Below are positions 7,735 to 39,948 of a DNA stretch of 64,000 nt, in pieces (position 1 is the stretch's first letter; every line of letters starts with the position of its first letter). Made by a program: the position numbers and the translations under genes. The notes under the pieces were generated by a model that searched no databases, was not told the origin of the DNA, and saw only the letters and a list, made by a program, of their open reading frames with translations. This stretch comes from Turritopsis dohrnii (Eukaryota > Cnidaria > Hydrozoa > Anthoathecata > Oceaniidae), in contig BQMF02000028.1 of the NCBI GenBank assembly GCA_027922465.2, positions 310,001 to 374,000 of the forward strand, given 5' to 3'.

Positions 7735-7762
7735 TGTATATATATATAATATATATATATAT
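7735..7762. repeat. AT microsatellite
   Basis: A run of TA dinucleotides with two phase slips separates the Helitron cluster from the direct-repeat element on the right. Confidence 0.9.
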
Positions 7763-12735: not shown

Positions 12736-13838
12736 TCATGGCCAATTCTTACAGCTTACAGCGCCCCCCCCCCCCCCCCCCCCCCCAGCTGATTTGCTCT
12801 TTGCGTCACTTGCATGAGCAAAATTATTAAAATTATTCCCTAAGTTGAAGACATGTTTACAGGGAAGACCAGTCGTAGAATAAGTAGGGCATAAACATTT
12901 TGTTGTCGATACAGTTATGACTCCAACACTGGATTGATAATTTGCCGATGTTTCATCAATTCTTTGCACAAATTTTGCTTTTTCTACACTTCCATATTGC
13001 TGCTTAACTACTTCTAGTGCATAGGGAATAATCTTTTCTTCGTAGCGCTTCAATGATTCAGCTATCTTCAGTACAGGAATTAAATATGGTTGCTGCTCGG
13101 TTATCGCGTTCAATATTTAAACTCGTTACACATTTCATCATATCCTTAAAAAACTGAACCAACCCCGAATACTTAGTGATAACAGCTTTAAATTTCTGGT
13201 TCAATGATTCAACCCTGTTATTAGTATTGTTTTGCAAATTTCTGCATTTGTTTTTGTAACAATGCGCCCAATCTCTACGAATTGGATGCCAATTTTTATC
13301 AAAGTACCAGGAGACGTTTACTAGTTTGAGATCTTTCAGTTCATTATAGTGTCTCATGTACTGCTGTTCTGTATTAGCATGTATCATTTTATCGATTAGC
13401 TCCAGACATTGAAAACACTGCTGCTCGTTGATGGTCATTTTGGTAGTGGTAAGTTCTCGTTTAAAAGATCTTTTAGTATGGAAAAGACAAAGCTGCAGGA
13501 CTGCATTTGGGAAATGCTGTTTTATAACCTCTCGTTCGATCATATCTTTGTCGGTAATAATGACCTTTGTTTCATTCAATCCTTGCTTGTACTTTTTGAT
13601 ACTGTCACACATTCTGTTCAACAGTTCTTGCTCTTCATTGGCCGCAATCCACAAACCAGCCAACTCCATTGCCATCAATGCACAACAACAAGTATACAGG
13701 CATCCGTAAATCATTCAGCTTATACGTTGCATCAATTAATAACAAATCTGGATATGTAGCGTATGTACTTTGTCTAGTTTTGTCTAAATATGGCCGTCAA
13801 TACGTCATTGTCGTCTACAACCACATCAACAGTAGCAC
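12736..13838 (-). pseudogene. ZSWIM3-like MULE transposase, catalytic and SWIM part
   Basis: Read on the minus strand, the exon starts after an acceptor at 13839-13840 (CAG then GTGCTACTG). It shows the MULE catalytic start LLIDATYKLNDLRMP, then VIITDKDM..., CLFHTKRSFKREL, and near the end a SWIM finger CLCPTYSTTGLPCKH (C-x-C...C-x-H). The SWIM block lies in another frame (12736-13113) than the core (13058-13714), and the segment at 13680-13790 is in a third. So there are at least two frameshifts, and a stop follows FRQN near 13785. Its N-terminal exons are at 26010-27064. They are separated by an intron into which a 12-kb transposon has inserted. MULE transposases of this type cut and paste DNA; ZSWIM3 is the domesticated vertebrate relative. 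Confidence 0.82.
12764..12786. repeat. Poly(C) run of 23 bases
   Basis: An uninterrupted C tract sits just beyond the MULE coding end (minus strand) and reads as poly-Gly in the overlapping frame. It marks a likely polymerase-slippage site. Confidence 0.95.
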
Positions 13839-14754
13839 CTGCAAAGGTAAAAGTATTTCTTTGCAAAAAAAATTAGTTAAACTCCAGTTATCAGACTTAG
13901 TAGTCAGGGCGCTGACGTCCAAAATTTTGGATTTTAAAACATTTCAGGCGGATTATTCAAAAAGTTGATAAAATTGTTGACAGCACCTTCACAATTATAA
14001 ATTTCCTTACTGGCTTTGTTAATTCTACCAAAAAGTGTATTTTCAGACCATTTATTTTTATAAAAATCTGCTTACTGCAATTCTAAACAAAGCCACTATG
14101 TTGTGCTTCTTCTTGTGAGAGCACACGCAAAAGAATAAAAAGAAATTTTAAAGAGACGGGGGTCTAGATATTTTTGCTATCCATAAAATCAACATTTAGA
14201 TAAAACTTCTTAAAATTTTGTTTTGTGTATAATTCAAAAAGTACTTTTTTATTTCTCTTCTATTAATAAAAAAAAGTAAATTATTTTAGGAAAATGCTAG
14301 CTAATAGCAACTTATATTTTTGTATTTGTGTTAATACCCCATGTTAAAATTATGGAAAAAAATTGCTCGATTCATATTTTTTTTACCCGCGAAACACAAA
14401 ATATAAACAAACACGTGGTGTGAGTAGAAAAATATTGAAGTGCATGCGTTACATATGATCAAATGGCCTCTAGTAAAAAAGGAATAAAGATTTCAGGTGA
14501 AAAGAAGGATAATATTTGCTTTATCCATAACAGTTATTATAATGACGAACCTCCGTTACGGAATTTAACAGAGAAATCGACAGAGAAGCTGAAAAATGCA
14601 AGGTGTGGCTTTTTTTCTTCTTCTTATGTTTTAGGGGTGTATGTATCAGCTTGTCCTCTAGCCTGGTTCTGCAGCATAAAATTGTAGCAAAACTCTACGC
14701 ATTCAGTCTAAAAAACATTGCATACACATGCGCGTGTAGCTCCCTAGCTTATCT

Positions 14755-17700
14755 CAGGCCCTGTCCGGAGACACGTGCGATCGCACCTGTACATGCAGGC
14801 ACACGTGCAAAACGATTGAGACGAGCGAAAAATCGCTCGTGCCAGCTAAGTTTATTGTTGCCCCATTGCACGCGCAAATTTTTATTTTACATTTTAATAG
14901 CTTGTGGAAGGATAATTGTAAAAGAAAAACGTTCCGATTACAACTTTCTTTACATCATTATTTATTTTGTTTTCTTTCTCACATTTAATTATTTGTTTCT
15001 AATTATTACGCAGGTAACAGATTTTGAAAGCAATACAATGTCTTCTTTTAATTGCTCTCCAACGTTTTGTTATCGTTTATAAAGGGTGTTGATTTTTTTT
15101 GACGCGATTTAGCCCGTAAGATGAAGAGTGCATTTTGTAAAACCATATTTTCATTTTCGAAAAATGTTTTCATTATCATTTTGGTTTCCAAACGAAGCAC
15201 GTCTTTTTTGTAATAATGGCAAGTAAGAAAGGAAATAGGGTCGAGTATTCTACGTTTTTTTCATGGGGAAAGTCTTCCGTTATTGGGCATGAAGATTTTG
15301 AAGAAAATGGTAAAAAGTATGTGGTGAAAGTTTGGTGCAAGATTTGTGCAAAGCATAAAACGAAAATAAATTATCAGCTGAAAGGATCTGCTAGAGAGCA
15401 TGCTAAGTCCTTTATCGAAGGAACAACATCTGTTACAAAGCATCAAGTAAGCATATCACTCCTTTTTTTTTGAATACAAAATTTTAACGAACGTCGCCAA
15501 AAGAAAATCTTTTATCTTTTATATATCATTTTTTCGTTAGAGGCGCATGATATTCTGAAAATTTTTGCATTACCTTTCAATTCATTTATCTAAGGTCATC
15601 AGGCATTTAAACGGCCAGAGTCACAAGATTGCCATTGAGCATGAACGAAATCAGCCAGTTGTGGACAGAATTCCTGATATCGATTTGACTGCTTCCAACC
15701 CATTGACTTCATTTTCCCAAGAAATATCCAGTCAATGTGTCAACAAAGCAACCACGACTCATTCATTAAGCTAGTACGAACTGCTTATGAGCTAGCGATG
15801 AACTCAACACTGCCACTGGCTCAATTTGAAACGTTGGTAAAAGTACAACGCATAAATGGGGTTCGTCTTATTAAAGGTTAGAGAAATTTGAATTAAAATC
15901 AAGTTTAGTGAATGTGTAAACAAAATAGCGTTCAAGGTTTATAACAATGTTCTCTCATATTTAATAAAAGAATTTAAAAAAGTGACGTTAGTGAAATAAA
16001 GCCGTTGCTAGGGAAAATGGACAGTGTTGCTATGAAAATTTTTCTTGTATGTTCTTAATAATGCATGATTTTGAAGTTAAAGCTGGTACCAGTAGGATCC
16101 ATTTTTTCAGTTGCTATACCGTGACTGACTTGCAGTCAGTTGCGATAAAAGTAACAGCTGGTGCCTGACGTCAAAGGTGAAGAATGAATCACATGAATAC
16201 GTCCTTTGAATACAGAAAACGAGTTGATAAAAGAAAAGAAAATTTTTGTAAATACATTAGTAGAGACTCGGTTCTTTAAAATAACAACTTATAAACAAAC
16301 AGACCTTTAGACATTAGTGTTGAACGAGCAATTTGTCAAATCAATTTGTCTATATGCCTGTCTCAGGCGCGCGATCGCGCAGGTCTCTTTAAGAACACTG
16401 TAAAACGGTAAATAAATCTCATGTTATAGGGCACCAAGATTCCAAGTCTGCACGTGAGTTCATACATTACATTGCTGAAGCTGTCCAAGAGAAATGCGCA
16501 GTAGTTTTGGCTAGCAGTAATTTTATGACCATTTTGAGTGATGGTTCACAAGCAAGAAAAACAGGATCTGACAAAGAATTGGTACTAGTCAGAGTAGAAA
16601 GAGCGGGTAGGTTGTTAAAAGTAATTACAGACTGGGCATCTGGCGGCCGGGAAGTATTTTACATAAACAAAATCTTATTCCAAAAATTATTCTAATTAAA
16701 TTAAAAATTAAATCAAGACTTTACTTTATGCAAAACGATATTTTCTGAAAATAGTTTCATTTATTTCATTTAGGACTTCCTGTTTATATGGTTGCCTCGC
16801 TTTTAGAGATGTCTGATTGGGGAGGAACTGACGCTTCTTCACTCAAAAAAGGCATTGACAGCATTTTTGAAGGAGGTCCTTTTAAAATTGACGACTACCG
16901 GAAAAAGCTTGTCAGTGTCACTGCAGACGGTGCAAGTGTAAATTTTGGAAAAATCACAGGGTTGTTGACTCGGTTATCTGAAAATCGCGAGTGGCTTGTG
17001 AAAATTCATTGTGCCAATCACCGTATTGAGCTTGCAGTAAAAGACGCAATTAAAGAAACGATATTTGATGATGTGGACAAGTTTTACGTTTCTTTAATAT
17101 ATTTTCTCAAAAACTCAGGTAAAACAAAAAACGAGATCAAAGCAGCTGCAACGCTATTAAACATACGGCATTATGGATTGCCAAAACTTACTGGTACTCG
17201 ATTTGTAGGACATCGAAGAACTGCTTATCAGAATCTTATGAATCTTATGAAAATGTGGCCAGCAGTTACAACAGCATTCGAAAATGTAGCAGCAGATCCT
17301 CAAACACGTAAAGAAACCTCAGCAAAGGTTAAAGGATTTTTAAAAAACAATTTCCACTCATATCGTTTTTTAAGTATAGTTTGCACCTATACAGATGTAT
17401 TGGAGATCATAACTCCCATTTCCAAAGTTTTCGAGGGAGAAGGTTTGCTCGCAAATGAACTTAAACCAGTTTTAGCGCAAACATTGCAAAGCATTAACGA
17501 AGAGATAGATGTTTCCTGTACAGAAGATGAACTTTTAACCAGCCATTTGGGTCAATTTAAAATAAATGATGATGAAACAGTCAAATGTTCATTCATAACC
17601 GCAGCCGATACCCACAAACGAAATATTGATAAACAAAGAATTGATGTTCAACTAAACAACATGACCTATTCGGAAGAATCGCGGATGCACGCCTCAAACA

Positions 17701-18916
17701 AAAAGAAGCAGGTGTTGGAGGAACTCAAAGAATTGCTTGGAGTTAGGTTTGCCGACCTGGACAGCCCAATTTTTACAAATCTAGCTTGGTATGATCCTAA
17801 ACAGTGGTCTAAAAATCGAACATACGGGATCGATCAGCTTACTACATTTGTTGAGCACTTTAAGGAACCGTTATCAAATACTAGCTTTGACCGTGAAATG
17901 TTATTTCGTGAATGGAAGCTGTTTCGTGTATTTGTCAATTCCAACTACAGAGGCCTTGAAGCCCCACAAATGTGGGCAAAAGTCTTTCAATACAAACGGG
18001 AAGAGTACCCAAACCTGGTTATCGTTGCCAGCCTTGTCATGGTTTTGGCTGGTTCGAATTCAACAGTTGAAAGGGCTTTTAGTTTACTGACCTCGATGTT
18101 GACAGATCGACGCCTTTCACTAGCACACTCAACATTAACGAATGTTCTGCTAATTAACATAAATGATAAACTCTGGACAACACACGAAAAAGAAGAAATA
18201 ATCAAAGTAGCAGTAGAGAAATACACAGCAAAACGCCGTGTTCAAATTATTGATGATTCATCGTCTCCATCAAAAATACCAAGGATGGATAATGTTGAGG
18301 TGGTTGATTTGAGTGAATCCTCATCTAGTGAGGAGAGTGAATGGGAAAGTAATGAGGAAGAGTAAAAATGAAATAAAATGCTCGTGTTATAAACTTATGT
18401 AAACTTTCTTTATTTGTAAACTTAACTTATTTTTATAGTTAAGACGCGCTTTTAATCGTGCACGTAGATACTCTTAAAAATTTCCACTAATGAACTAAAA
18501 CATGTTCAACTTTAAGCAATTATTCGCTGTTGCTAGGGAGAACGACCACCGTTGCTAAGGTAATTTTGAAATTTCCTTCGTCATACGAATTCATTTGTTC
18601 ACCTGACGAAAGAATATGAAAACGGAAGTGGTACCAGCAGGACTCGTTTTCGTGTTATCCAATGAAATTAAAAAGCATCTTAGTTTCCAGCTCCCTCTCT
18701 CGGTTTTATTTTTGTTTATAGAATTTAACATTCTTTATGTTATTTCATTCAACTGCAAAATAAGCTTGAAACAAAAAAGAAACGTTTATTTATAACAGTG
18801 TTTTTATCATAAAGATCGCACGTGCAAAATCGATAGTTAGAAAACTACTGCACGTGCAAAACTGTTTGCAGGTGTGAAAAGGAACTCCTGTATCTATTTC
18901 TTCCTGACAGGGCCTG
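14755..18916 (+). mobile_element. hAT element inside transposon A
   Basis: The ends are inverted repeats CAGGCCCTGTC (14755-14765) and GACAGGGCCTG (18906-18916). They are flanked by TTATCTC on both sides (14749-14755 and 18917-18923), an 8-base duplication with one mismatch if the outermost base is counted. Subterminal GCACGTGCAAAA motifs occur near both ends. It is inserted in intron 1 of the Academ-like gene and carries a near-complete four-exon transposase gene in the same direction. The ends are fresh and the main exon is open, so this is one of the younger insertions in the window. Confidence 0.9.
15216..18365 (+). CDS. hAT transposase, four exons, nearly intact
   Basis: Exons are 15216-15446, 15595-15876, 16430-16606 and 16774-18365, joined by GT-AG introns. 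Exons 1-2 hold a BED-like finger (WCKICAKHKT ... HLNGQSHKIAIEH). Exon 2 then reaches SFIKLVRTAYELAMN, but one base is gained or lost near 15750, so exon 2 is out of frame by its end and hits TAG at 15772. Exon 3 has ILSDGSQARKTGSDKEL, and exon 4 begins GLPVYMVASLLEMSDW. The last exon gives 525 open residues, including SVTADGASVNFGKITG (catalytic Asp region), KIHCANHRIELAV, and the dimerisation block SNSTVERAFSLLTSMLTDRR (about residues 420-440). It ends in a Ser/Glu-rich tail. It is the transposase that would mobilise the surrounding 4.2-kb element; activity would require the exon-2 shift not to be real. Confidence 0.85.
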
Positions 18917-20633
18917 TTATCTCCTATCTAATTTTACACAGCACCATACGAAACGACGAGAACACACTTTCTGCGTTATCTGCTGCTGATACCTCTCATC
19001 TAGTTTTCCATCAAAAATGTTACGACTCGTACACCCACAAAAAGGCGCTTGATAAAATCCGCGGAGAAAAGATTGAAACAGCATCTTGCGAAAATGAAAA
19101 AAACAACGACAATTCTCCGAGTTCATCGAGAGTCTCTTCAAGAAGGAAGAGTCGTACAGGTACGTAATCTTTTGATTCTGAAAAATTTCTGAAGTCTCGA
19201 TTTCGTTTTCCTTATATAAGTAATTTGTGAAATGATTTCTACATACCTTGAAATTTTGTTTTGTTTCAGAAAAAGTGTTGGCGGATGTAGAATCCTGTAT
19301 TTGCTTTTCCAAAAAGTGGTTGAAACCAGGTTATGTGAAGTTGACAAAACTGCAAACGCAATTGGCTGCAACAACTTTACAGAAAGAAGCCACGACAAAG
19401 AAAGACATCGGGAGATTATTGGCATACGTTTCTGGACTTGATTGGCAAAATATCGTGGCAATGGAATTGCACTACCATCACTCGTGCTACCGAAATTATA
19501 CTCGTCAAGAAAGAAATGAAAACATCGTTACCCTCGACACAACTGCTTTAGAGAAAACATTTAAGTTTGTTAAAAAGAACGTTATCGATGGGTACGAAGT
19601 CGTCCCTACTGAGTATTTGGTGAATGTGTATGGGGATGATGAAGAAAATAGAAAACTAGACAAAAGAACACTTGTCAAAGCTGTTGTTGATGAATTTGAA
19701 GGAACTGTGGCTTGTTGGACATCCAAAAAATCATCTTTTACATTTAATGACACTGTTGAGAAAGGTCGCATCATCGAGGTACTGCTTGAAAAGATAACCT
19801 GTCTTGAAAAAGATCTGCAACCGAAAAGTGTCAATAAAGCAATGGAAGATGTTGCCTACCTGATCCGAAAAGAAATTAACGAAATGCCAAAAACTGCTAG
19901 CAGTCAACACGAAGTTGCCACCTCTATTAGATTCAATGTTGGCACTCTGCCTATCCAGTAGAAGTCTCAACAGAACTAATGACAAAAAGAAACTCGTTAT
20001 TAATTCAATTGGACAAGATATCATTTATAATGTCACCAACGGTAGATGTCGAACGTCAAAGCATGTCAAGTTGGCGTTATGTATGAAACAAATGACAGGA
20101 TCCAAAGAAATGGTGCAATGGATGAACAGATTGGGTCATGGGTGTCTTATGATGAAGTCGCATTAGTAGAAACTTCTCTGACAGACGAAACAATGAAGCA
20201 CCAAACTATAAAGAGTTATTGCCCCTCTTCCATTCAATCGTCAATTTTTGTCACGTTTGTGTGGGACAATAACGACATCAATCCTGATTCACTAACAGGT
20301 AGCGTCATGCACTGCACAAACGGCATTATTATCCAAATGCGATCAGAAAACACCACATCAAACACCCCATCTGAAACCACTTTGCCGAAAAAAGTCACAA
20401 CACGAAAACGATCGTTCACTGCAAAGCCCAACTTTCTTCCATTATATGTTTCTAAAAAAAGGGGGAATCCATCACATCTAACAGGATTAACTCTCCCTAC
20501 CACAGATCCTGAGCACAACAAACACTCTGCTTTTATTGACTTTTTGTGGAGCCTTCTTAGTCAAGAATGCTCAGATGTTCCAATGTGGACTGGTTTCAAC
20601 TATCAGATCCAGAATGATCAAAGTAAATTATAA

Positions 20634-22294
20634 ATAATTTCGGTTTACTTTCTAAAAGTGTTCTATAGTGTGTTTGTTTGACTCTTAGATTTATATTTAG
20701 TATTCATTCATATTTTAGTCAACTATGATCTATGATTAATGTTTATTGGTCAGCGCGAAGCAGCTGATCTTTCATTAGCGTTTGTCCTTCCGTCCGTTAT
20801 TCCAGAATTTTTGTCCACAGTTCTAGCCTGGATTCATCATTGAAGGCTGATATCACTAGAGGCTGTTTACTAATCGTGGCTTAATTTAGGTTTTTCAGGT
20901 AATTTATAATTACAGCTATTTTATCAGGGTGAGTGCGGCTTGAAATTAAAACATGGGTTTAATGGTTTTAAGTCCGTCACACAGATATCGTTTTGGAAAT
21001 AAAAGGTACAGGAAGGGTTATTTTTCACCAGAGAGGTAAAGGGATGGTAATATTATCACCGTATACTATAATTCTTGAACCTGTTTGTATACTGTTCAGT
21101 TAGATTTTGTGTTTTGTGCTATATTGGTCAGACCTGGAGATAGAGAGAGCTCTGCTGCCTCCAAAACGACCTCCTACATTCAGTACATTGGATATGTGTT
21201 GTTTTTTATGTATTCGTACGAATGTGTCCATCAATATAGTCGATTTTTAAATGTTACTTTACCCTTTCTAAAATAACAATTATAAAATGAGAAATTTATC
21301 TAGTCATCCACACAAAAACAAACAGAAAACATCTTGAAGTTTATAAAGCATTTAAATACTCATGTAAGTGTAATGTAATGTAGTATTTATCAAGCAAAAG
21401 AACGAAATATATATGTTTATAAACTCTACATCCCTTTTTTCAACCTTTTAACGAACAAAATACCTATGCGCAGTCATTTAAGCAGAAAAGCTCTTCACGT
21501 ATTTAAAAAGTATTGTCATTTTTGTTTTCAATTTCGTCACGTATTTTTAAATTGTTTTTTACACTCTCTCTGCATGACCAGCAGTCTCTTTTGATTTTCT
21601 AATCTTTAAAATAATCTGCAGTTGTTTTTGCATGCTTTATTTTCATTTACAGTGAAGAAGGGCAAAAATTATAAAGGGCATTACCACTCATACAGGCACT
21701 TGTATATATGGGTTTTTTTAATATATCAGTTATCTTTGTAATTCGGTGAGACGTTTGTTTTTGAACTCTTGTCTTGTCACTTTGAACTCTTTGTTATTAT
21801 TACGGTCTGCATGAAATTTACTTCAGAAGTGTACTCTAAGCATTTTTAAGGAATTGGTTACTTCTTTTGATTTTAATACAAGCCTGTTTTATTCGCAGTC
21901 CGATTTTATTCAATTCACTTCAAAGATAATCCCATTTGTTTCATTGTAAAGACGTCCTTAGATATAGCATACATAAAATTGTACACAAAACTCAACGACA
22001 CATTGATAAGTGTTTGATATGCTTTGTATCTTTAATTTCTAGATAAACATTTTTTTGATGAATTAAGTTTTGTTACAATGACACTGGTACATGGACACAA
22101 TTTTGAGAGCACACCTGTTTGGTTTTTATCATTGAATGTCTTATTCCCACTATTACATCACTATTACTTCAGTTATCTCATGAATTCCTATTTTGGAACA
22201 AAAACATGATTACTCCATTCTGCTTCACAGTCAAACATTTTTCAACTTTGGCGAAAGTGCTGACCTTCAGGCCTCTTGTTTCGTTTTCCCTAGA
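20634..22294. other. Intron-like noncoding stretch in transposon A
   Basis: No gene is seen. It separates the block ending WTGFNYQIQNDQ from the block starting DVTKYITYLPAINDS. These are adjacent in the sister copy B, where the join lies within one exon at about 34160, so this is an insertion or a lineage-specific intron of 1.6 kb. It contains GGTCAGCGCGAAGCAGCTGA (20755) and long AT-rich tracts. Confidence 0.5.
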
Positions 22295-25200
22295 TGTCAC
22301 CAAATACATTACTTACCTGCAATTAATGACTCGCCAACTAAAATGGATGTTGTATTGGAAATCTTGACACAGTCCAAGCTTAAAGCTGAGAAACTCGGAC
22401 TCACTGAAACGGACGTGGTATTTGATCAGGTGATATATGCCAAGGCTGTCGAGATATTGCAGAACCCAACATTTGTCGACTTGAAGAGGTTCATTGTATT
22501 GAGGATGGGTGCCTTTCATACAGCGCTTACCTTCCTTGCGGTTATTGGAAAACGTTTTGGTGAAGCTGGGCTGCGTGACTGGATAGTTGAAGCTGAATTG
22601 CTAGGTATAGACCTTGAAAAGCAAGTCTTCTTTGCCATTTACTGTGAATGATCATCTCTAAAACTACAGCATTGGTAGGTGGTGATATATTAATTGTTTA
22701 TCATTCTTTTGAATCAGGTGAAGGAGCAGTGGAAAAGGTAATATCGGGAAAACATTACAATCGGGCGCTAAGGATATTAAAATATATATACGCTGCAATG
22801 GTAAAAATCGAAATTGAGAGGTTCAAAGATTTCGTAGACAACGACAGCAAGTATCCCTCGTTTTCAGAGACCACTTCCACAAACGATTTTTTGGATTGTG
22901 AAATGGAGGTAAGGAATATTACGATCGGAATCGCAAAATCAAGTACTGTAATATAATAACATGTGATATCTTTTTTTGGTGTGTAAATGAATCAAAACTG
23001 TCATCCGTGAATTCAACTATTCAATACTTTATTTTTAGCTCAACTCTGAAACTTTCTCAGCATTGATGGAGAATAAAGTCGTGTTGGATGCGTTGGAAGA
23101 ACATCGAGAAATACTTAATGATGTGCAATTTTCTGGACCTACCTCAGTTTTCTGGCTTTCCTTTATCGAAATGATGAACACATTGTTCCTTTTTCTACGG
23201 TCCATAAAGACTGGAAATTGGGAAGCACACCTCCAAGCAACGCATCAAATGATACCTTGGATGTTTGCTTATGACTGACCGAATTACTCTCGGTTTTTAA
23301 CATACTATTGGACTGAGATGACGCAATTACCTGAGACACATCCAGGGGTTCATCAACAATTCATGTAAGAAATTCATTTGAAATTAGTATAGATATACCA
23401 CTTATATATTTCTACATTTTAATTTTATTCTCATATAGGAATGGAAACTTTGTCGCTAAACGTTCACCAGGAAAGTTTAATTCCGTTTCTTCCGACCAAT
23501 GCATCGAAGAAACCGTGAATCACGAACAGTAATGCAGAGGTAGAATCACTGGATTTGCAAGCAACAAAAACACCGTACAGAGATGGGTGCTTACAAGTCA
23601 TACGATATCTCAACGTATGTCAGAAATGGAAGGGATGCTAAAAAGAAAGGGGAACGCTCGAAGACCTAAAGATCTTGGAAAGTCTCGTATGAAATTTGAT
23701 GACCAGTGCTGCAAACGTGCCTTTGATGTGATGGGGTAGTCCTTTCGAAACCCGTGATGTTTTGATAAATATTGCGACAGGTGGTGAAGCTCCAGAGCCA
23801 ATCATGAACGATTTGTTAGAGGCACAGAACATAGGTGAATCAGCGCTTACTGATTTTCTCCAGAAAAGGATCCAATCTAACGAAAAACCATTCTACAACC
23901 CAATCAAGGGATGTTCTTTGAAAACGTTTAAAACCATGTCTGTCATGAAGACTCTTCGCGCCAACGGAAAAGCAGTTGTCCTGGCAGCTGAACGAAACAT
24001 ATCGAAACGAAGGTTGACACTGCACACGGAGACATACCAACTGATGCTGTCCACATTTTTGATGGTATGGTATTGTTGCAACAGATGACCAAAATCTTGC
24101 TGCCAACCTTCGCTGACGTTTCAGAGTACTTGATCAAACATATTCTCAAAGATTCCACGATTGTTTATTTCGTCACTGATCAGTATTTACCAGGGTCTGT
24201 AAAATCGTTTGAGCGTCAAAAACGAATGTCAGCTGGCAGTTTGCGTTTTCGAATTGAGCGAAGATAGCAGAGGAGAACGAAACAATGGGGACGGTATCTC
24301 CAGAACGCCGAGAACAAAACTGAGCTTGTTAGTTTCTTGTTGAAAGACTGGTCCGACAACAAGAGATTCTACAATGTTTTGCTTGGGAAGATTCTCTACG
24401 TAAATGTGGGTTCCTCTTTCTACAAATTATGTTGCCGCGGAGATACCGTAAGTGAGATATCAGAAATATGATTCCTTTATTATCTAAAGACTACTCTATT
24501 ATCCTGTGCTGGTACTTAAATGTGTACGGTGATATTTTTTAAACTTGCGTATTGTAATGAAATCAAAAATATCAAGTCTAATATTTTCATCTCATATAGG
24601 TTGTATGTGAGGAAGAAGCTTCCCTCCGCAACAAACAAGAGGAAGCCGATACAAAAGTTTTTTTGTGCTCGAAACATGCCGTGGATGTTCATGCTGCAAC
24701 GTCAGTGTGTATCCATACTGTTGACAGTGATATTGCTATCTATGCAATCTATTTCAGCACAAAGATCAACACTGAAATAGTCATAAAGATTGGAGTGAGG
24801 GAACGCACCAGGGTTTTGATCGTTTCAAACATCGCCAGAGAGCTCGGAATAGAAACCTGCCTGGCACTTCCAGCATTGCGCAGCTTTTAAGGAAACGACT
24901 ACACCAGCTCATTTCATGGCATCGGGAAAGCCAAAGCATTGAATGTTCTTTTGAACTTTCCTGAATTCAAAGAAACCTTTTCAAAGATTGGGGATGAGCC
25001 AGTATTTGAAGCGACATTATTCGAATCTGTTGAACGGTTTGTCCTCAAACTGTATGGCTTAAAAGGTTGTACAGACGTAAACAAGGGACGTTACGTGAAG
25101 TTTACATCCACAAAAATCACTCCACCACCACAAAAACTCCCCCCAACCCGAGACGCACTCCTGTGTCACTGTAAGAGAGTTTCTTTTGTAACTTCGATGG

Positions 25201-26009
25201 TCAAGAAGTCTATCGAAGCTGATTTTGGGATGCCTTCTCCAGACGGTCATGGTTGGAGTATTGACGATGATGGCACACTCTCTATCGTCTGGATCATTTT
25301 GCCACCAGCACCAGAAGACGTTCTACAACTAGTTTCCTGTAACTGCAAAAAGTCAGCTTGCCAGAAAGGAAACTGTAACTGTTTAAGTCTCAATTTGGCA
25401 TGCACCGATCTGTGTGGTTGCGGTGATATATGCCAAAACGGGAGACTGGACAACTCCTCTGATTCTGGTAGTGACTCTGAAGATGAATCATGTGACAGTG
25501 ATGACGGTGACTATGGCAACAGTGACGATTTGAATTAATTCCTTTTTATGTCTGTATATTTTTTTGTAAATACCCTTTGTCATAGAAAAACGGAAGAAAC
25601 TGTACGAGCGCTATTCATTGTACCTGGATTATTTAATTGTCTATATATCGAAAAATATTTAGAATCAGGCTATCTTTTATATGTCATTTTTAATGGGAAT
25701 TGCATGGTCTAATGAATGGTATCATTAAGATTTCAATTTTAAGAAGAAAAAAAAAATTAGTACTAGGGCTTGTGACGTCATTGCCAATTTTTAAAAATGT
25801 GTCTGGGAAGTCTATTTTGGTCTTTGGAAGTTAGCCAGTAGACCATTTCGTACTCAGGAGAAGGTATTCAAACTATTGGAAGCAACCAAAATTAATCCGC
25901 ACCCCGCCATCTTTTTTTTGACGTCAGCGCCCTGACTATAGTGGATTCAATTAATGTTAAATATAAATATAAATATGTTTTCCAGGAATAGAACTGATAA
26001 AAAGTTAAC

Positions 26010-27064
26010 CTGGAATACGCGGCATTTCAAAAATCAAGTGCTCCACATCATTTTTATCTTTATTTGATAACTTGCTGTTAATATTATGCAAGTCTTTTAA
26101 CGCGACGCACTTTCCAGAACTTGCGATTATGTGATTTTGAACTAATTTTTTGTTTGCTTTATTTTGCAACATTTTTTGCATTTCTGTTTTTAGGTCTTTA
26201 ACTTCAATGCGGCGTTGTTGAGGAAGCCTTGGAAATGTTTCCTAAAATTAAGTTTGCTCAATTACAAATGCATCCCTTAAATTCGCACAGTTTATTAGCT
26301 AATGCTCCGTCTTTCTACATTGTAGTCTTACTTTCGCAACTGCATGATTATGTTGGTTAAACACTTCTTTGACAAACAAGTGTTGTCCATCGGGTGTTAC
26401 TCAAATTTTCAATGCATATTGGCAACCCATAATGTAAGTTCTGTAAATATGTCACAATGAATGGAATTAGCAACAAAAAAAGTTCCTGTGAATGTTACCT
26501 ATCAAATAATAAACAAAGAAACAAACAACAACAGCAACAATAACAAAACCAAACAAGATAAAAAAAGCATGAATGATCAACAGACCTTTTAAACTTAGCT
26601 GTATCAGTTCTAGATAATAGGTCCCCATTTCGAAATCATCCCGCGCTAATAGATGCTTCCTGAAAGTCCTCGAAGAATGATTTCTTTTATACACCCCATT
26701 CAAAGCATAGTCACATGAGTCTCTTGTCATCATGTTCAAGGTAACTGCCATTGAGTGTTAAAGAATGTCTTTTTTCGAAACTAAAGACTTGTTTTTAACC
26801 CCCAATGATAAGGTTCAAAATTATATTCTATTATACCTTTGGTTTGGACGTTTGCCAGTTGACGATCCTTGAAACTTTCGTCCTCCATGAATACATGCAT
26901 AGTCAATTTCAGAGACCTTTAAATCTTTATTATATACTTAAATTGGTGTTCTTTTGAAGCAGCTTCAATTGAGCGTGAACTTCTTTTATACAGTTGCACG
27001 AAATGTCTTTATTCATAGCTGCTTCGAGCTCGTTAAAAGACGAATACTTTTCTCCAACTTCCAT
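26010..27064 (-). pseudogene. N-terminal exons of the ZSWIM3-like MULE
   Basis: On the minus strand an ATG at 27064 opens MEVGEKYSSFNELEAAMN, a typical start of ZSWIM3-like proteins. Then come KVSEIDYACIHGGRKFQG (about 26930-26846), a block with DGQHLFVKEVFNQHNHAV (about 26430-26310), and an exon with FPRLPQQRRIEV and NKANKKLVQNHI (about 26245-26010). The last exon ends in a GT donor at 26009-26008 and joins in frame to the exon at 13838 (MPRIP then GATVDVVVDDNDV). Stops interrupt the first and third blocks. About 330 bases (26435-26765) between blocks two and three do not resemble the family and may be a further insertion. Confidence 0.75.
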
Positions 27065-28869
27065 TTTCGAATGGTTTGAAAGACAGGCACCACTACTAGA
27101 GATCTCTTATAACTTTTGTGTACATTCGCGCGCTTTTAAGTCGCATGTCTAGTTGAATCTACTTTGTCTAACTTTCGACATGGCTCTTATAGTAAATGGC
27201 GTTGTTACTTTAATTAATTCTTTCTTGTGCATGTATATTTTTAAAAAGAAAAAAGAATCATTAATCTACAGAATTGTTGTAGTAATGATTTGAATGACGT
27301 AAGAAAAAGTTCCGATGAAAGAAAGAACATGGAATTATCAACAATGAATCTTCACGTAAGAATAGCAGAAAAATAAAATGTTACCGTCACGTAAGAATAG
27401 TCACTGCGCAAAGAAATTGGTTCCAGGCTTCTACTATATTTTGCTGATAGCGCTATAAATGAAGAACTCCTTGGATAAAAGAGCCAAAATTTTTGAAAAT
27501 GGAGCAGGTGTTATTGGACGTTGTTTGGAGCAAAAATCCACCTGAGCAGCAGTTCTGGATGTTCATTTATAGTTTTGTCAGCAAAATACAAGAGGGGTCT
27601 GGAAACGGCTGGAGTGACAATGGCAAAAAACCTCTTTGTTGAATTTGCTACTGTATATCCTTCCCACCCTACATAAAAGATTCTAACGATGTATAATCAA
27701 AACTGCCTGATTTATTTACATATTTGTATGTCAGCAATTTCTTCTTGAACGTTGTGATGTCATGTTGCATGGAGATCATGTTTTGAACAGTAATATCTCA
27801 GGAAGGAAAAATTATTTTTCCGAATTTCAAAAACTGTTTTTCATAATTTTTTAAGCTGTTTTAATTAGGTCAAGAAACAAAACTTGTGATTTTTTAGTTT
27901 AGTTCCCCTTTAATATATAGATTAAAAAGAATGAATGAATTTTGTGCTAAAATCAATCATGCTCAGCTGTTCTTTTCAAATTTCTAAATTGATTAGCCCA
28001 CGCCGTTTTCTTATTGAAATAAATATGAAAAACAGAAAACAAGTTATTGCTGTATAACAGAAACGGAACTTCGTTTCCATAGATGATGTGACCACGGTAA
28101 CGACATGGAAATGGAACAATTTTACTGTGAAATTTCAAGGCCTGTCAAGTCAAATGTGAAATGTTCAATATGTTGCCCAATTATTTATTATAAGATAGTT
28201 GACTAACACCATCTAATTGTGGCTTATGTACATAGGGGGACAGTCATGTCATATTATAATCTTAGGAAACAAAGCAACACACTGTTTGACCCTCATTTGC
28301 GGATTCTGTTCATAGTTACGTTGTATATTAATAAAATACCCATCTTATTTTACAATGGTCTTCATTTTACCTATCTAGTCATCTATCTAGTTTCAAACTG
28401 TCAAAGTCATACCACAAAACACTTGTTCACAAAACAGGTGATTAAAGTATAACCAATATTTTATTCGATTCAAATGCATGAAACTAAATTTAGTTAATTT
28501 TCTGCATATAAAGTTCCTTTATTTTCTAAAAAATGTCCTAAATTACATCTAAAAATCCCTTTGTTCGTGAAAGTTTATCTTGCGACATTTTGCGACTTTT
28601 CCAATTCGCAAAAGTTTATCCAAAAATGTTGAGAGTTTCTGTCGCAAAAGTTTCTCTGATTTAAGTATTCAAAATGTCTTAAGTGCTTGATTGTATGAAG
28701 ACGGCTAGAATGGTTAGAATACCTAGCTAGTTTGTCTTGGTTGATTGCATTTATATGGAGAAATTATTCAATAAAATTGCTGGATCACTTAAATTTTCGA
28801 CCGGCTAGTGGCAAAAAGTCCATGATTTACATCAACTCAGTTTAGCTGACTTTTATTTAATCATAAGAA
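27065..28869. other. Noncoding stretch
   Basis: I recognise no gene and no clear terminal repeats. Around 28565-28670 phrases such as TTCGCAAAAGTTTATC and CGCAAAAGTTTCTC recall the subterminal repeats of the Tigger elements further right, but the match is too short to call. Confidence 0.5.
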
Positions 28870-29368
28870 AAAATCTGACACATATTGACCCAGTTGAAAG
28901 AGGGATCTGACTCAGTAAACAGAGTTGACTGGAACAGCTTTTGTCATTACAATCAGGAATCTATTTTAAATGATTTTCTGCTAAATACCAAGCTGTTAGG
29001 GCAAGTTACAAAACTGACATTAAAGGATGGTTCACAAGAATACCACTTCAACTTAGTTGCAACATTTCCATCTGGGCCTACAGACAATAAACAGACGTGA
29101 CACTGTACCAACTCCTCATGTGTCAATTAATGACCGAGTGATCAACTCGCAAGCTCTCGTACTCAGCACTGCATCAGAACATTCTTTGCCTTTCACAATG
29201 GTACCAGTAATGATCAATTTAGCGCAAGAATTGGCGAAAGATCCCGAAGCGTTAGCAAGGTTATCTGTAGATCGCACTTCTGATTCCTACAAAATGATAT
29301 ATGGTTTGGCTAAAACATTTGAGGATAAAACTTTGAATGCTATTCAAATTCTTTTCTTTCGTTGAATA
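28870..29368 (+). pseudogene. Decayed hAT transposase relic 2, N-terminal segment
   Basis: The translated segment around 29150-29370 (EHSLPFTMVPVMINLAQELA, then RTSDSYKMIYGLAKTFEDK) aligns with hAT relic 1 at 10370-10500 (EHSLPLSLSRDIIELAKELA). It continues to FLSLNI at 29366, where the Academ-like element D interrupts it. The coding resumes at 45228 with IDESTSNN, exactly as in relic 1 (LNMDKSTSSN), when one copy of the ATA duplication is removed. There are frame changes near 29098 and 29350. Confidence 0.78.
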
Positions 29369-29535
29369 TAGACCACGATCCGTGTACTTCATTTGTGTCA
29401 GTTCGTGACCTCCCTCACAGAACCAAACCAAATTTTCAGAAAATATAGGCCAAGTTATGTTGATACCAAATCAAAAAAGTTCCCAAGTTTTTCTCCTGCA
29501 GTTTTTGAGAAATTAGGTCATAATTTTTATAAATT

Positions 29536-30060
29536 TAGTCCGGGAGCCAGGGGGGTAAACTTTAAGGGTCAGGGGGGGCAAATTGTTAACTATACCACAG
29601 TGTTGCTATATCATTGGAGTTTCAGTAAAATGATGTTTGCCAGTCTGGATTTTCTTGCCAATGTGTATTTTACAGACCAGAATGGATATACACCTAGAAA
29701 AACTGGTCAAAAAGTGATAAGTACAATTAGGCTCATAAAATAAAAACTACAACATCTAAATGGCTGAAAACTGGTGATAACCTAGCCAATGGGATATACA
29801 ACAAATCTAAATAAAATTTGATTGAGTATTAGCACTTGATTTGATGATGTCAGCAAAAATGTCTTGTGTTTTTGCTATTTTTCCTTATTTTTTCATCAAT
29901 AAATAGCTATAAGTTCCTGAACTTGGGATATTTCTCACATAAATTGACATAAAGAGTATCACAAAATCATGTTCCACCATTTGACATAAGAAAAAAATCC
30001 AAAAACTAATTAGCTGTGTATTTTGCGGACCAGAATAAAAGTATAAGAAAAATACGATAT
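29536..30060 (+). repeat. Left 520-base terminal inverted repeat of B
   Basis: Nearly identical to the complement of 37183-37701; the match ends after TTGCGGACCAGAATAAAAGTA. The left copy has an extra G-rich bit (AGGGTCAGGGGGGG, 29567-29580) missing on the right. Confidence 0.9.
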
Positions 30061-31271
30061 AATATAAGATTTTTTCCTGCCAAACATAAATTCCACCAAG
30101 CGTTCCTAAGTTATTTAACTTTTCATTCTCTCTTGCAATGTAATGTCTTCACTGACATAGTTTTTCCCTTCTTCTTGCGTTTATTTACAAGGTCAGGAAG
30201 AACTTATATGGAATTATATTTGCATAGCTGTAATGTGTTGTCTTTTCTTAGTTACAAATTAATAATAGATTGATAAAAAATAATGAGTGATTGTCAGTGG
30301 CAGGATTCTCCAAAGAAAAAGAAAAGAAAGAAACGAGAAGAGAAAAATCAAAGAACTTGTATAATCCATGTTAGGGATGTGACAGAATCAGTGTCAGCTT
30401 TTACAGACATCTCATGGAAGGTAAGATATAGAGTTTGTATTAGACAAAAAGTCATCATCATAATGTCACTGCTCTGTTAACTGAACCTTTTTGTTCCTGT
30501 TGATTTAGAAAGCCTACACTTCGTCACAGAAAAGAGAAGATCACCTGTTAGATCAGCACGATGTTGGTAACCCACCAGATACTACACTATATGGATATCA
30601 CAGAAAGTGTTACCAGTCATATACCAATGTAAAGTCAACTCCAGATAACGAGAAGATACAGCACAGCGATGGACAACAACCTTTTAGTAATGCAGCAAGA
30701 AGTAGTCACAGAGATAAAACATTCAGGGGTAACCATATGCCAAAAACTCATTACAAACAGCTTATAATTGGCATTAGTGTGGTTTTACATATGCTTTATC
30801 TTAATCTTAGGTTTGATCCTTGCTCCTAAAGTTTGCATAATTTCCATGAAGAAGAAAACAAACTCCAAAGGTAGTGGTTACGAAAGTACAGTGAAATGTG
30901 TGACGACAACAAGTGCACAAAGCCTTATCGAGTACTGTCTAAATGGAAATGATTATCAGCAAGCGCAGATGACTGCACTTGGTCCATCAGATGTTATTTC
31001 AAAGGAGTTCTGCTTTCATCGTTCATGCTACCGAGATATTGGTCGAAAGAAAGAGAGTTCTGTTCAGGATGATCATTCTGAATGTCGAAATGAATGTTTT
31101 GAATCGTTGGCTCAATACATTGAGGATGCCGTAATCAACGAGGGTAAGATTGTGAAAATTACTCACCTGACAAATATGTATAAAAACATTCAAAATGAAC
31201 GAGGAATTGAAGTGAAAGGTGCACAGAACCAGGTTTTAAAATCCCGTATTATCAATAGATTTAGAAAGAAA

Positions 31272-32350
31272 GTAGACTTTTTCTATTTCCATATCTCCAA
31301 GCTATCTCCATTATTCTATTTATTCATTTATTATTTATTCCCCCCTGTTTGATAGCACCCATGTTAGAGCGCGTAACTTTTTAGAAAAAAAAGCTAATAA
31401 AAAGTTGAAGTTTTCTCTCTCTACGTTTTGAGTGTATTGTTACACGGATAAAAGATTGGTTTTACCAGAGGTTGTGACTTCGAATCTGCTTCTGGTTGAG
31501 CACAAGTTGTACGAGCCGTTTATAAGGAAATTTCTTCAGTATGTTATTGGTAACCTGATATATTTTGTCGCCTGTCTTGATTTGTTGTATTCTGATTTTT
31601 CCTGATGCACACCATTAAATATCGTCTCAATATGAAGTGAGTGTATTCATTTCCATTCATATAAGCAAATCGGACTTCATTTGTTTCAAATAACAAAAAT
31701 AAGACATCTTCTATGAAGCGCTTTGAAAAGCTTCATGAAGCTAGTTGGACGATTTCCAGTGTCATTCTGATGCCGATCATTGTTTCCATTGTTGAGATTG
31801 CAGTAAATCATGAAGAATCTGTAAACATATACTCTGATGACACTCTGCCTGTAGTAGGCACCACTTTACCGTTCATTTAAGTAGAGATGTGCAACATGAC
31901 CAAAAATAAAAGCCAGATAGTGCGTAAGCATCTAGAAAGTGATTGGCAAAATGGAAGTAAATACTTTACGTTACCTGTTGTTTGGAATTCCTTCACAGGA
32001 TTCGGTACAACGTCAGCAATCCAATGTTTTAGGAACCTATCGCTATTCAAAACTTCAAAATCTTAACCCTGCGCAAATTGAAAGAGTGTTTTATGAAAAT
32101 GAGTAGTTACCCGATAACATAATAGATACAACTATTCATTTCTTCGAACTAGTCAATTTATAACGATCTTTCCCAAATCAGGAAGACAAAGTATGAAAAA
32201 TTCATCTTCTATAGATTCTCACTTTCACGGTTTGAGAGTCTACCAACTCTAAGTATGAAACGCTTAGCATAACATGGGGTCTTGAAAATAGCTCATCATG
32301 ACTGATAGCAAACAATATCCACCAAAGCATCGAAAGAAAAAGAAGTAAAA
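31272..32350. other. Noncoding gap in the B gene
   Basis: No coding is seen, although copy A has about 80 residues at the matching place (19700-19960). It is therefore an intron carrying extra sequence, or an insertion that removed those residues. It ends at the minisatellite. Confidence 0.5.
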
Positions 32351-32359
32351 ACTCGCGAA

Positions 32360-33130
32360 TTTGCTACTGCAGTGTATTACAGGCTATTACTGTGTACTAC
32401 AGGCTATAACAGTGTACTACAGGCTACTACAGTGTACTACAGGCTATTACAGTGTACTACAGGCTATTACAATGTACTACAGTGTATTACAGTTTACTAC
32501 AGGCTATTACAGTGTATTACAGTGTACTACAAGGCATTACAGTGTATTACAAGGCATTACAGTGTATTACAGGCTATTACAGTGTATTACAAGGCATTAC
32601 AGTGTATTACAGGCTATTACAGTGTATTACAGGCTATTACAGTGTATTACAGTGTACTACAAGGCATTACAGTGTATTACAGGCTATTACAGTGTATTAC
32701 TACAGGCTATTACAGGCTATTATAATGTATTACAGGCTATTACAGTGTACTAAAGTGTACTACAAGGCATTACAGTGTACTACAAGGCATTACAGTATAT
32801 TACAGGCTATTACAATGTATTACAGGCTAATACAGTGTACTACAGTGTACTACAAGTCATTACAGTGTACTACAAGGCATTACAGTGTATTACAGGCTAT
32901 TACAGTGTACTACAAGGCTATTACAGTTTACTACAGGCTATTACAGTGTACTACAGGCTATTACAGTATATTACAGGCTATTACAGTGTACTAAAGTGTG
33001 CTACAAGGCATTACGGTGTATTACAGGCTATTACAGTGTATTACAGTGTACTACAAGGCACTATTGCAGTGTATTACAGTGTATTACAGGCTATTACAGT
33101 GTACTACAGGCCGTTGTACTGATTATCACA
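32360..33130. repeat. 10-base minisatellite, about 760 bases
   Basis: Units of ten bases alternate between CAGGCTATTA, CAGTGTATTA or CAGTGTACTA and CAAGGCATTA. Because ten bases is not a multiple of three and the unit lacks stops, all three forward frames are open and encode the same ten-residue repeat (YYRLLQCITG-like). These are not genes. It lies in the gap or intron of the B transposase gene. Confidence 0.95.
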
Positions 33131-36100
33131 ATGTGTGCTGGAAGCTATTACGCGATATTACAGGTTCTTATATAGGTCATTACACCGTATTACAGGTTAA
33201 GTACATAGATTTTAACAGGCAATTTGTGCTCAATGGACATCTTATATTATGTCGTATGACATTGACGTGTTCTTTTTTTACTGACGGAATGATATTTCAA
33301 AAGCTATATGACGGGTCTTTTCCATGGATGACGGGATATTTCGAGGGCATATGTCGGGTCTTTTTCATGGTAGTGATACACCAAGTCGTTGCCCAAAGAT
33401 TTCAAAGGACCTTTCAGTTGCTGGCCTCCTCCACTTAGTGAAATAAATATCAACAATGTGGAGTTACCTGAACTGTTAAAGAACTTCTTAGAAGCTCTTA
33501 TTTCAAACACTGAAACTAAAAGAAGTTTGAGACTTGTAAACTCAATTGGACAGGATGTGCTTTATGCAACCAGTAATGGCAAAATAAAAACAGTGAAACA
33601 TTTGCAGCTGGGTGTGTTTACAAAAAGGAAAACAGGCTTTAAACTGATGGTTCAATGTCTCAATAAACTTGGACATTCGATTTCGTACTGTGAAGTGAAT
33701 CGTTTCGAAACATTTGTGGCAGAACAAGAATGTCGTAATATTTGTTCTTTGTCCTATGTTCCCAACAATGTACAGCCTTCAACCTTTGTCACTTTTGTTT
33801 ATGACAACTGTGACCATAATCCGGAAACCATCAGTGGCGCTACCATGCATTGCACTAATGGGATAGAGAAATATCACTGGGAAATGAATGCACCACCAAC
33901 TCCTGCAAATCCTCTGAAACGCCGACGCTCCTTCAAGCCCATCCCCATTGAAGTTGCACCATATTACCAACCAAAAGAGAGACAACATCCCCCGACTCTG
34001 TCAAATATTGAACGCAACAATCATCATATTGGAGATATGCTATCAAAACTTGAAAATATCATCTGGGTTATTTCAAGAATGAAGGCAGCTGAAAACGGGG
34101 TGAAGCAGCAAGTTCCAAGTTGGACAGGGTTCTTCAGTGAAACTGCTGGTGCTGGACCAAGGCAAATACACTCAGTGCATTATTTACCAGCCATAAGCCA
34201 GTCTCCTACCAAATTTGAGACAGTCCAGGAGATTCTAAAACAAGTCAAAGCTAAGGCAGAAGCAATTGGTTTGAGCTATGCGGATCTTGTCCTTGATCTT
34301 GCGATATATGCCAAGGCGTTAGAGGTGTTGACTAATCCAATCAATCAAGATCTCCAAAGCTTCATTAATCTTCGAATGGGACCATTCCATGCATGCTGTA
34401 TCTTCATGGCTGTATTAGGGAAAAGATTCGGGTCAGCAGGTCTCAGAGAGATGATTATTGAAGCCAACCTCACTGGACCTGGCAGCGTTGAAGCAGTTCT
34501 CAGAGGAAAGCACTATAATCGTGGCTTCCGTGTTTTGAAAAGGCATTATCTCGGCTAAAACTAGAATCGTTTGAAGATTGGATGCAAGAGATGGGAAAAC
34601 ATGACGTTGTTGCAGCATTTCTTGAGTCAGAAGAGTTGATGCATCTTGTTGAATCACGGAATAAATCTAACATGCAAAAGGTAATAATGGTACTTACGTC
34701 TTAAAAGAATGTCTGAAACTTCAAAATTTCTTCACTTAAAGTAATCAATCCTTTTTCCTTAGGTTGTTAACTGTTCCGAGACATTGCGAGGTTACCTTGA
34801 CAATTTGAAGAGGAAATTCGAAACAACGCATATGGTCCAATGGCAAAGTTTTGGCAAACTTTCTTGGATTTAGTTGAAATTTTGTTGGATTACATCAAAT
34901 CAACTAGAAGTACTGACTGGGAGCTGCATTTAAGTAGCATGGAAAGAATGCTTCCATGGTTTCATGCCTATGACAGGGTCAACTACGCTCGCCATTTTAC
35001 CTATTGTTGGGCTACACTCAAAGATCTTGCACAAGCTAAGTCTGAAATCTTTACCGAATTTCAAAATGGTAACTTCGCTGTAAAGAGAACTGAAGGTGAT
35101 TTCAATATGCTCCCGCCTGATCAAGTCATCGAGCAAACTATTAACAAGGAGCAAAAAGGGCCTGGTGGTATAATTGGTATCGCAACCTCTGTAGGTTCTG
35201 TACAAAGATGGATTTTCTCTAGCCATATCATTGCTGAAATGAGCTGTGACTTCAAAAAGAGCATAGACGTGGACCAACCATCTTCTGGAACAAAAGATCT
35301 GGGAAAAACACGGAAGCTCCACGATGAAGTTATGGTAAATGATTGCTATGAAGTAATCTCTAATTGGGCAAATCCATTTCGAGTTAGTGAACAGCTGGTT
35401 TCAATTAACTCTGGAATATCAGCTCCAGTAGAAGTGGTGAATGACTTGAGTCGTGCAGAACAAGTAGGTTCATCATGTTTGGAAACATTTGTGAACAACT
35501 GTATCAACACAAACGAGGAAAATTTCAACGACCTAGTAAAGAAGAATAACCTTAAGACATTTGACAGTACACTGAAGAAGACAATCTCCAAAGAAAAGGG
35601 ATTAGTGATGGCACCCCGATCTGACAGAGAAACTTTTGCAAGGTTAATGTTGGTATCAAAAGACCGCGAAGTCAATATGAGAGATACCCTTAACTTTGAG
35701 TTAACTCCGTTACCACTATCATTAGCGAATCCAGACGGAACTTTGTCAAAAACAGTCAAATCAAAACTATTCACAGAGCTGTCCAAATCTGCAACAGTTG
35801 TTCAAGAATGTCAGGAAAACAGTGCACCTATATTTGATGGCATGGTGCTCTTCCAATCCTCCTACTCTTTCTACATTTGGTGAAATTGCCGATTATCTAC
35901 TGAAGGAGATGTACAGCAGAAAATGTCGAGTAGTGTTCTTCGTTACCGATTATTATTTGCCTTCTTCCATCAAATCGCTCGAAAGAAGACTACGCTCAGC
36001 AGTTGGATCACTGAGGATCAAAATCTTGCGTCGTGACCAACAAAGGCCAAAATCCTGGAGCAAGTACTTGCAACATCCCGATAACAAGATTGAACTGGTA

Positions 36101-37182
36101 CAATTTCTCATTGATGATTGGTCGCAAAATGAAGGCAATGTCAATTTCCTTTCCAACAGAGAATTATATGTTACATGCAAAGAAGATGCATACTGCATAA
36201 AGGTCAACAGATGTCGCCTAGAAAAACGAGTCACAGAAGAATTGAGGTCATTGCAAGAGGAAGCAGATACAAAGATGTTCTTATGCTCACAGTTTGCGGC
36301 ATCTTTAGGCTTTGAATCTGTTTGTATCATCACAGTAGACACAGATGTTGCAGTATTGTCTCTGTACTTTGCATCAAAAATTGAAGCAAGATTGTATTTA
36401 GAGATTGGAACAGGATCAAAACTTTCCCTGTACGACATGTCTTCAAATTCATTACAAGATGATCTGCTGGATGCGTTACCAGGTATCCACGCATTTTCAG
36501 GATGTGACACCACAAGTTGCCTTAATGGTATTGGCAAAGTTAAATGTCTGAAGTTGGTTAACATGGAGGAAAGGTGGATGATAGCAATGCGTCTTCTTGG
36601 AGCTTCAGATCACCTAAATGAAGGTACACTCGAAACCTTGGAGGAGTTTACATGTGCATTATACGGTGTCAAAGACTGCAGCAAAGTCAATGAAGCAAGA
36701 TATCGATTGTTTACCAGTAAAAGTAAATTTCCCGATCCACCCAAACTACCTCCAACATCTGATGCCCTTAAGCTAGACCTACAACGTGCTAATTACCAAG
36801 CGTTTGAATGGAAGCGTGCTCTCGAACGTAAACATGAATGTTTGAATCCTCAAGATCATGGGTGGAAAAGAACTGAGGAAGGTAATCTAGAAATTAAATG
36901 TACGAGCCAACCAGCTGCACCTGATGCTATCCTTCAATTTGTTTCTTGTGGATGTAAAAAGTCATCTTGCGATAACAATTTCTGTGCTTGTAGAAAGGCA
37001 AACATGAACTGCACGGAAATGTGCAAGTGTAAGCAATGTAGCAATAGAAATGAACAATTTGAGAGTGACTTTACCGAATCTGAAGACTCAGCCAGTGATG
37101 ATTACGATGAATAACTATGAATAACACTTATTTTATACACACTTTGTAAAACAGTACCAAGTGTTAGATGATAAGCACTTTT

Positions 37183-37701
37183 TCGTAAAATTTCCGCAAA
37201 AACCTTATCATATCTTTACTTTTATTCTGGTCCGCAAAATACACAGCTAATTAGTTTTTTGATTTTTTTCTTATGTCAAATGGTGGAACATGATTTTGTG
37301 ATACTCTTTATGTCAATTTACGTGAGAAATATCCCAAGTTCAGGAACTTATAGCTATTTATTGATGAAAAAATAAGGAAAAATAGCAAAAAAACAAGACA
37401 TTTTTGCTGACATCATCAAATCAAGTGACAATACTCAATCAAATTTTATTTAGATTTGTTGTATATCCCATTGGCTAGGTTATCACCAATTTTCAGCCAT
37501 TTAGATGTTGTAGTTTTTATTTTATGAGCCTAATTGTACTTATCACTTTTTGACCAGTTTTTCTAGGTGTATATCCATTCTGGTCTGTAAAATACACATT
37601 GGCAAGAAAATCCAGACTGGCAAACATCATTTTTCTGAAACTCCAATGATATAGCAACACTGTGGTATAGTTAAAAGTTTACCCCCCTGGCTCCCGGACT
37701 A
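37183..37701 (-). repeat. Right 520-base terminal inverted repeat of B
   Basis: The complement of 29536-30060 with few differences. It starts about 70 bases after the end of the B gene, so the 3' end of the transcript would run into the repeat. Confidence 0.9.
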
Positions 37702-37855
37702 ATTTGTATGATTTACTCGATAATCTCTTTATATCGATTTTTTTCGATTAAGCAAGTAATAAAAAACAGAATGAATATTCCAACCTTTTCATCGAAACGG
37801 CAAGCTGGATCACTACGTTCTGTGAAATAAACTTAGACGAATTCAAGTAAAAAAT

Positions 37856-39904: not shown

Positions 39905-39948
39905 AAAATAAATGGGGTGGGTTGGAAAATTTCCAAAAACCTAATAAG

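Follow-up and report, generated by a model that had tools for sequence, protein, structure and literature searches.

Background

AcademX and AcademH transposons belong to one superfamily. Target duplications measure 3 or 4 bp in AcademX as against 9 or 10 bp in AcademH, a difference tied to the nuclease and the helicase encoded (PMC10045372). Two further papers report Academ as amplified in bivalves (PMC10294476) and mention a RecQ helicase in Academ (PMC3627910). The present analysis concerns a 64,000-nucleotide stretch from the hydrozoan Turritopsis dohrnii (GCA_027922465.2, contig BQMF02000028.1, positions 310,001 to 374,000), referred to as the window, in which an original prediction had proposed a transposon family, with copies A and B, combining an XPG/FEN-like nuclease with a TSO1-like CXC domain. 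The AcademX nuclease is XPG-like, and we regard A and B, with a probability of about 78%, as degenerate copies of an AcademX-type cut-and-paste transposon of animals, a figure that includes the roles proposed below for the DDE core, the nuclease and the CXC domain. Sequence comparison and structural models gave one protein order for the family, consisting of an N-terminal Cys/His segment, an RNase H-like D-D-E core, a FEN/XPG/EXO1-type nuclease and a CXC domain.

Two decayed copies of one transposon family

Copy A (13901..25938, forward strand) is 12,038 bp long and damaged, and was delimited by inverted ends, a TAG target duplication (13898..13900 and 25939..25941) and coding homology. Its inverted-end sequence is TAGTCAGGGCGCTGACGT, with 24-nt arms at 13901..13924 (forward strand) and 25915..25938 (reverse strand) that are 96% complementary. 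The length includes a nested hAT-like element at approximately 14755..18916 (forward strand, ends CAGGCCCTGTC), which is foreign to the Academ-like family; the 6 bp TTATCT are common to both of its flanks and its open reading frame (ORF) at 16755-18362 matched the hAT dimerisation domain of Pfam (Dimer_Tnp_hAT). Without this element A is ~7.9 kb and thus near B in length.

Copy B (29536..37701, forward strand, 8,166 bp) was delimited by long inverted ends, an ATT target duplication (29533..29535 and 37702..37704) and homology. The ends, 513 bp on the left (29536..30048, forward strand) and 489 bp on the right (37213..37701, reverse strand), are 97.7% identical across 476 bp (29573-30048 vs 37213-37687); the outer 27 bp of the arms are identical, and the left one contains an insertion of 23 bp. 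An identical 22-bp repeat lies twice in each arm (29662-29683 and 30015-30036; 37224-37245 and 37577-37598), giving four occurrences in the window vs 0 expected for a pattern that was derived from B's own ends. Both A and B begin with TAGTC[A/C]GGG and close with its inverse.

The motifs and the collinear coding cited for A and B in the original prediction were present at their sites within these limits. Several in-frame stops interrupt the coding region of A, and B carries frame changes, taken as damage, near 34545 in the DDE core and near 35857 in the nuclease module; the D-D-E and nuclease motifs remain readable piecewise in both copies. That the proteins are encoded by multiple exons, as had been claimed, is likely and at the same time unproven, as the segment following the possible intron of B (34681..34762, forward strand, GT...AG, 82 bp) is out of phase.

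DDE core

The core of B is encoded by a first part at 33395..34680 (forward strand, 66% identity to relative P0064), with the motifs DNCDHN (33803), LDLAIYAKA (34292) and RMGPFH (34370), and a remainder at 34837..35757 (forward strand) with a candidate catalytic Glu in DQVIEQTIN at 35119. The corresponding segments of A, all on the forward strand, are 20046..20654 with the first Asp motif DNNDIN at 20265, 22298..22606 with the second Asp in FDQVIYAKA at 22421 followed by RMGAFH, and 23434..23754 with a candidate catalytic Glu in SSDQCIEETVN (Glu codon ~23506). D-D-E was kept in 29 of the 30 alignment rows having all three positions, the candidate acids being D62 or D65, D237 and E459. The predicted core has an RNase H-like topology in which an extended helical region separates strand 5 from the last acid, and 27 of the first 28 structural alignments of the model were to DDE enzymes at modest Z scores, while Foldseek comparison of the model with the PDB and with viral models returned nothing at E <= 0.001. 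Inverted ends, 3-bp duplications, the D-D-E residues and the core model therefore bear out the earlier assignment to the DNA transposons with a DDE-like core.

A GxxH motif was located between the second D and the last E (G265 in 69/70 rows and H268 in 69/69). The hAT, P, MuDR, Kolobok and Dada superfamilies are defined by C/DxxH in this interval (PMC9587614), and membership of the A/B family in any of them was rejected on this difference. The hAT assignment was also rejected by the absence of the PF05699 dimerisation domain among the matches of eight family ORFs and nine relatives.

Precomputed Pfam annotation placed DUF6589 in five relatives (P0154, P0175, P0238, P0255 and P0264), and weak matches under the cut-off were obtained in four (P0155, P0152, P0153 and P0052). 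DUF6589 may be the DDE core of the A/B family; a literature search found no paper naming it.

Nuclease module

The XPG/FEN/EXO1-type nuclease module of B lies at approximately 35758..36875 (forward strand) with the motifs IFDG (35830), VTDYY (35942), EEADT (36257), DTDV (36338) and GCDTTS (36500). In A the module (approximately 24031..25130, forward strand) contains internal stops and the motifs IFDG (24055), VTDQY (24172), EEADT (24639), DSDI (24723) and GNDYTS (24891). A Pfam scan of 44 relatives matched 32 families, and none of the 25 listed was an XPG family; the N-terminal family of 5'-3' exonucleases matched one relative at E 0.13. The identity of the nuclease was therefore settled by fold: structure comparison of relative P0153 revealed the FEN/XPG/EXO1 catalytic core over residues ~669-1036. 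All seven active-site acids were kept in order in 78 of 79 rows, which together with the fold upholds the XPG/FEN-type nuclease that had been predicted. These acids, at positions D696, D739, E835, D837, D861, D863 and D920, are presumably equivalent to FEN1/EXO1 residues, as judged by their order, and the Glu-x-Asp of the module occurs in EXO1 as well.

CXC domain

TSO1-type CXC domains were identified at 25335..25442 in A and 36944..37048 in B (both forward strand) by the Pfam family TCR at 25.8 and 24.1 bits, respectively (cut-off 23.5), and the domain of B also matched LIN54 (E 0.0031). Of 269 relatives found, 89 combined all three nuclease motifs with a tail of sufficient length, and the cysteine pattern was present in 82 of these; of the other seven, five were altered in spacing or Cys and two were broken off inside the domain. 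The pattern was intact in 22 of 30 genome loci, and five of the eight loci without it (L009, L011, L012, L013 and L025) were matches that stopped before or within CXC. The predicted CXC thus stands. A profile of the protein alignment also matched LIN54 among PDB sequences (E 0.0046), with three weaker, unrelated rows.

It had also been suggested that CXC reads the element ends. In LIN54-type CXC domains a tyrosine before the fourth Cys has a role in DNA reading, and TTYRAA is the LIN54-type site. This position was Tyr in none of 85 CXC-bearing relatives, the commonest residue being Arg (44/85). TTYRAA occurred 0 and 0 times in the long inverted ends of B vs 1.8 and 2.2 expected, and four and three times in the terminal 500 bp of A vs 4.4 and 2.0 expected, with no clear enrichment. 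Because the tyrosine is absent in 85/85 and the site is not enriched, the suggestion found no support, and other DNA binding by CXC is possible.

The CXC domain is the least described piece of the A/B family. No description of a CXC-nuclease fusion in a transposon was found in the literature at title and abstract level, where most subscription papers lay outside coverage. A 'Cys8 zinc finger' that may belong to Academ proteins could be the CXC of A and B, which makes the domain less novel. Kyakuja-Dileera-Zisupton transposons also carry CxC-named clusters; this identity was rejected, with no such family among the Pfam matches of window ORFs and relatives.

Relatives and protein architecture

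The best homologues were obtained at E 2e-158 for the C-terminal part and E 3e-166 for the core, beyond chance, and relatives from other sources matched A and B collinearly with equal order of parts in both. From the 269 proteins, 86 were picked for length and spread to form the alignment. Two relatives carry the order in one frame: locus L001 contains an uninterrupted 1466-codon frame that is collinear with A and B, and P0153 (1099 amino acids) has DDE core, nuclease and CXC in succession. The N-terminal coding segment of B (30783..31283, forward strand), with 46-58% identity to P0065/P0064, contains Cys/His residues (HRSC and others) that may bind zinc. Named relatives among the matches listed, with annotation listed for 120 of 191 proteins, came from a sponge, sea urchins, moths, thrips, a beetle, a crab, a limpet, a sea anemone, a coral, hagfish and hake. 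Family query A4 detected two related loci in genome contigs and query A5 none, and neither query detected any in viral contigs. The contig of L001 is filed under a planctomycete metagenome bin and L002 under a Bathymodiolus symbiont assembly; both are probably animal DNA within bacterial assemblies.

Genome copies and probable recent movement

A search of the genome (436 Mb, 891 contigs) with the C-terminal frame of B gave at least 104 matches, and across residues 42-462 the closest had identities of 97, 97 and 95%; copies were thus counted by their nuclease-CXC frame. Of the 30 loci kept, 19 had one or more TAGTC.GGG ends, 23 in total, and L014-L018 had TAGTCCAGG variants. For L004 and L006 no left end was detected within the DNA retrieved around them. 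DNA directly outside the end differed from copy to copy except in L012 and L013, whose common flank indicates that they are probably one insertion held twice. The 3-bp duplications were seen in both window copies (TAG, ATT) and in three of the four genome loci with both ends seen (L005, L009 and L020; ATT, TGT and ATT), the fourth, L031, matching at two of three bases. L005 (889-3673) and L020 (889-3461) are internal deletions of B, each with both ends and an ATT duplication, and are 98.7-99.2% identical to B outside the repeated ends. In L005 (2,785 bp) the DDE core is deleted and an open 473-codon frame retains all nuclease motifs and CXC.

Taken together, the ends, differing flanks, 3-bp duplications and ~99% identical copies provide good evidence of recent transposition in this family. 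The ratio of nonsynonymous to synonymous substitution rates (dN/dS) was 0.85-1.63 among close B-type copies, based on eight pairs as other pairs had dS < 0.005 or were saturated; such values are to be expected of copies no longer under selection.

Proposed mechanism and alternative explanations

In its mode of action the A/B family resembles a cut-and-paste transposon that has an additional, accessory nuclease. The DDE core would pair the ends, free the 3' ends and join them to the target at a 3-bp stagger. The fused nuclease, for which a role in processing element ends is plausible, would act at the junction with donor or target DNA, cutting or trimming the opposite (5') strand, a flap or a hairpin; its step might instead take place at the target, in the course of gap repair. 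The CXC domain could be a zinc-stabilised DNA-contact module that keeps the nuclease on DNA, probably without LIN54-type sequence reading.

A and B have a DDE core and an XPG-type nuclease in one element and a 3-bp duplication, which agrees with the AcademX description (nuclease, 3 or 4 bp duplications) and supports, at the level of description, the Academ-like lineage originally proposed. AcademH membership was rejected, as the duplications are 3 bp and no helicase family reached the cut-off in Pfam scans of eight window ORFs and nine relatives, in which a DEAH11-like KH domain (E 0.086) was the one chance-level row. It is unlikely that the family represents a DDE superfamily of its own, as yet unnamed, which acquired an XPG-type nuclease independently and so works like AcademX without being one. 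In favour of that alternative, the AcademX assignment is one by description, and scans of relatives gave only DUF6589 matches below the Pfam cut-off. Nuclease, DDE core and 3-bp duplication are, on the other hand, the combination printed for AcademX. Capture of a host repair-like gene by an unrelated transposon, or its mere adjacency to one, would be in keeping with genome copies such as L005 that retain the nuclease-CXC frame without the DDE core. This is extremely improbable given the core-nuclease-CXC order in one frame in L001 and P0153, the position of the nuclease part between the inverted ends of A, of B and of the four genome loci with both ends seen, and, strongly, an order common to diverse animal sources.

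The remaining alternatives concern the functions of the parts. Inactive PIN-fold proteins are known and the activity of the A/B nuclease is predicted only, so that the module might serve as a DNA-bending or flap-binding scaffold; we hold this to be very unlikely, as the seven acids are kept even though several nuclease-bearing rows are just 22-30% identical to the first sequence. Recognition of a specific sequence in the element ends by CXC is doubtful rather than far-fetched: the 22-bp repeat of B is a candidate binding site, although the pattern was derived from the very ends in question and might be bound by a part of the protein other than CXC, and both the LIN54 tyrosine position and the lack of TTYRAA in the ends of B speak against such reading. 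More speculatively, and quite unlikely in our estimate, the nuclease-CXC half may be a separable and self-contained DNA-targeted nuclease, with L005-like derivatives mobilised in trans and supplying nuclease or acting as a dominant regulator, and a CXC, with Arg for Tyr in about half of the relatives, whose DNA preference is new and linked to the element ends.

Surroundings and implications

A fragment of a third copy, comprising part of the DDE core, was located at 39249..39910 (forward strand). In B, a tandem array (32370-33109) of ~73 copies of the 10-bp unit CAGTGTATTA separates the first coding segment from the second. Further transposase ORFs at 60068-61420 (DDE_Tnp_1_7, E 8e-89), 62447-63331 (DDE_1), 13061-13714 (MULE) and 11677-12429 (hAT with PF05699, unrelated to the family) indicate an abundance of DNA transposons in the window. 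The region 257-7735 contains many direct and inverted repeats of up to ~2000 bp at 76-98% identity.

The analysis provides, with confidence, the full-length architecture of a protein that joins a transposase to a repair-type nuclease; ~99% identical copies with 3-bp duplications suggest recent movement in this genome, and the role of a FEN/XPG nuclease in transposition becomes a testable question. It also explains animal proteins labelled 'uncharacterized', 'hypothetical', 'AWS domain-containing' or 'Tesmin/TSO1-like CXC domain-containing' as relatives of the A/B transposon protein, such records among the matches listed being from moths, thrips, sea anemone, limpet, hake, hagfish, crab and coral.

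Comparison with known systems

The transposases of Hermes (hAT) and ISCth4, and RAG1, resemble the A/B family in an RNase H-like core whose last acid is preceded, in the model, by an extended helical region. The target duplication of hAT elements is 8 bp, whereas that of the A/B family is 3 bp and its core has GxxH in place of C/DxxH. Human EXO1, FEN1 and XPG share with the nuclease module the fold and the order of acids, but at 10-15% identity, and the A/B nuclease forms one protein with the transposase core and CXC. The CXC domains of LIN54, tesmin and TSO1 are likewise matched by Pfam TCR with nine Cys, while the A/B family has one CXC instead of two and differs at the position before the fourth Cys. 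AcademH differs by a helicase in place of the nuclease and by its longer duplications. AcademX is alike in description as a DDD/E transposon with a nuclease and duplications of 3 or 4 bp, and in the part of its description available CXC is unmentioned (PMC10045372).

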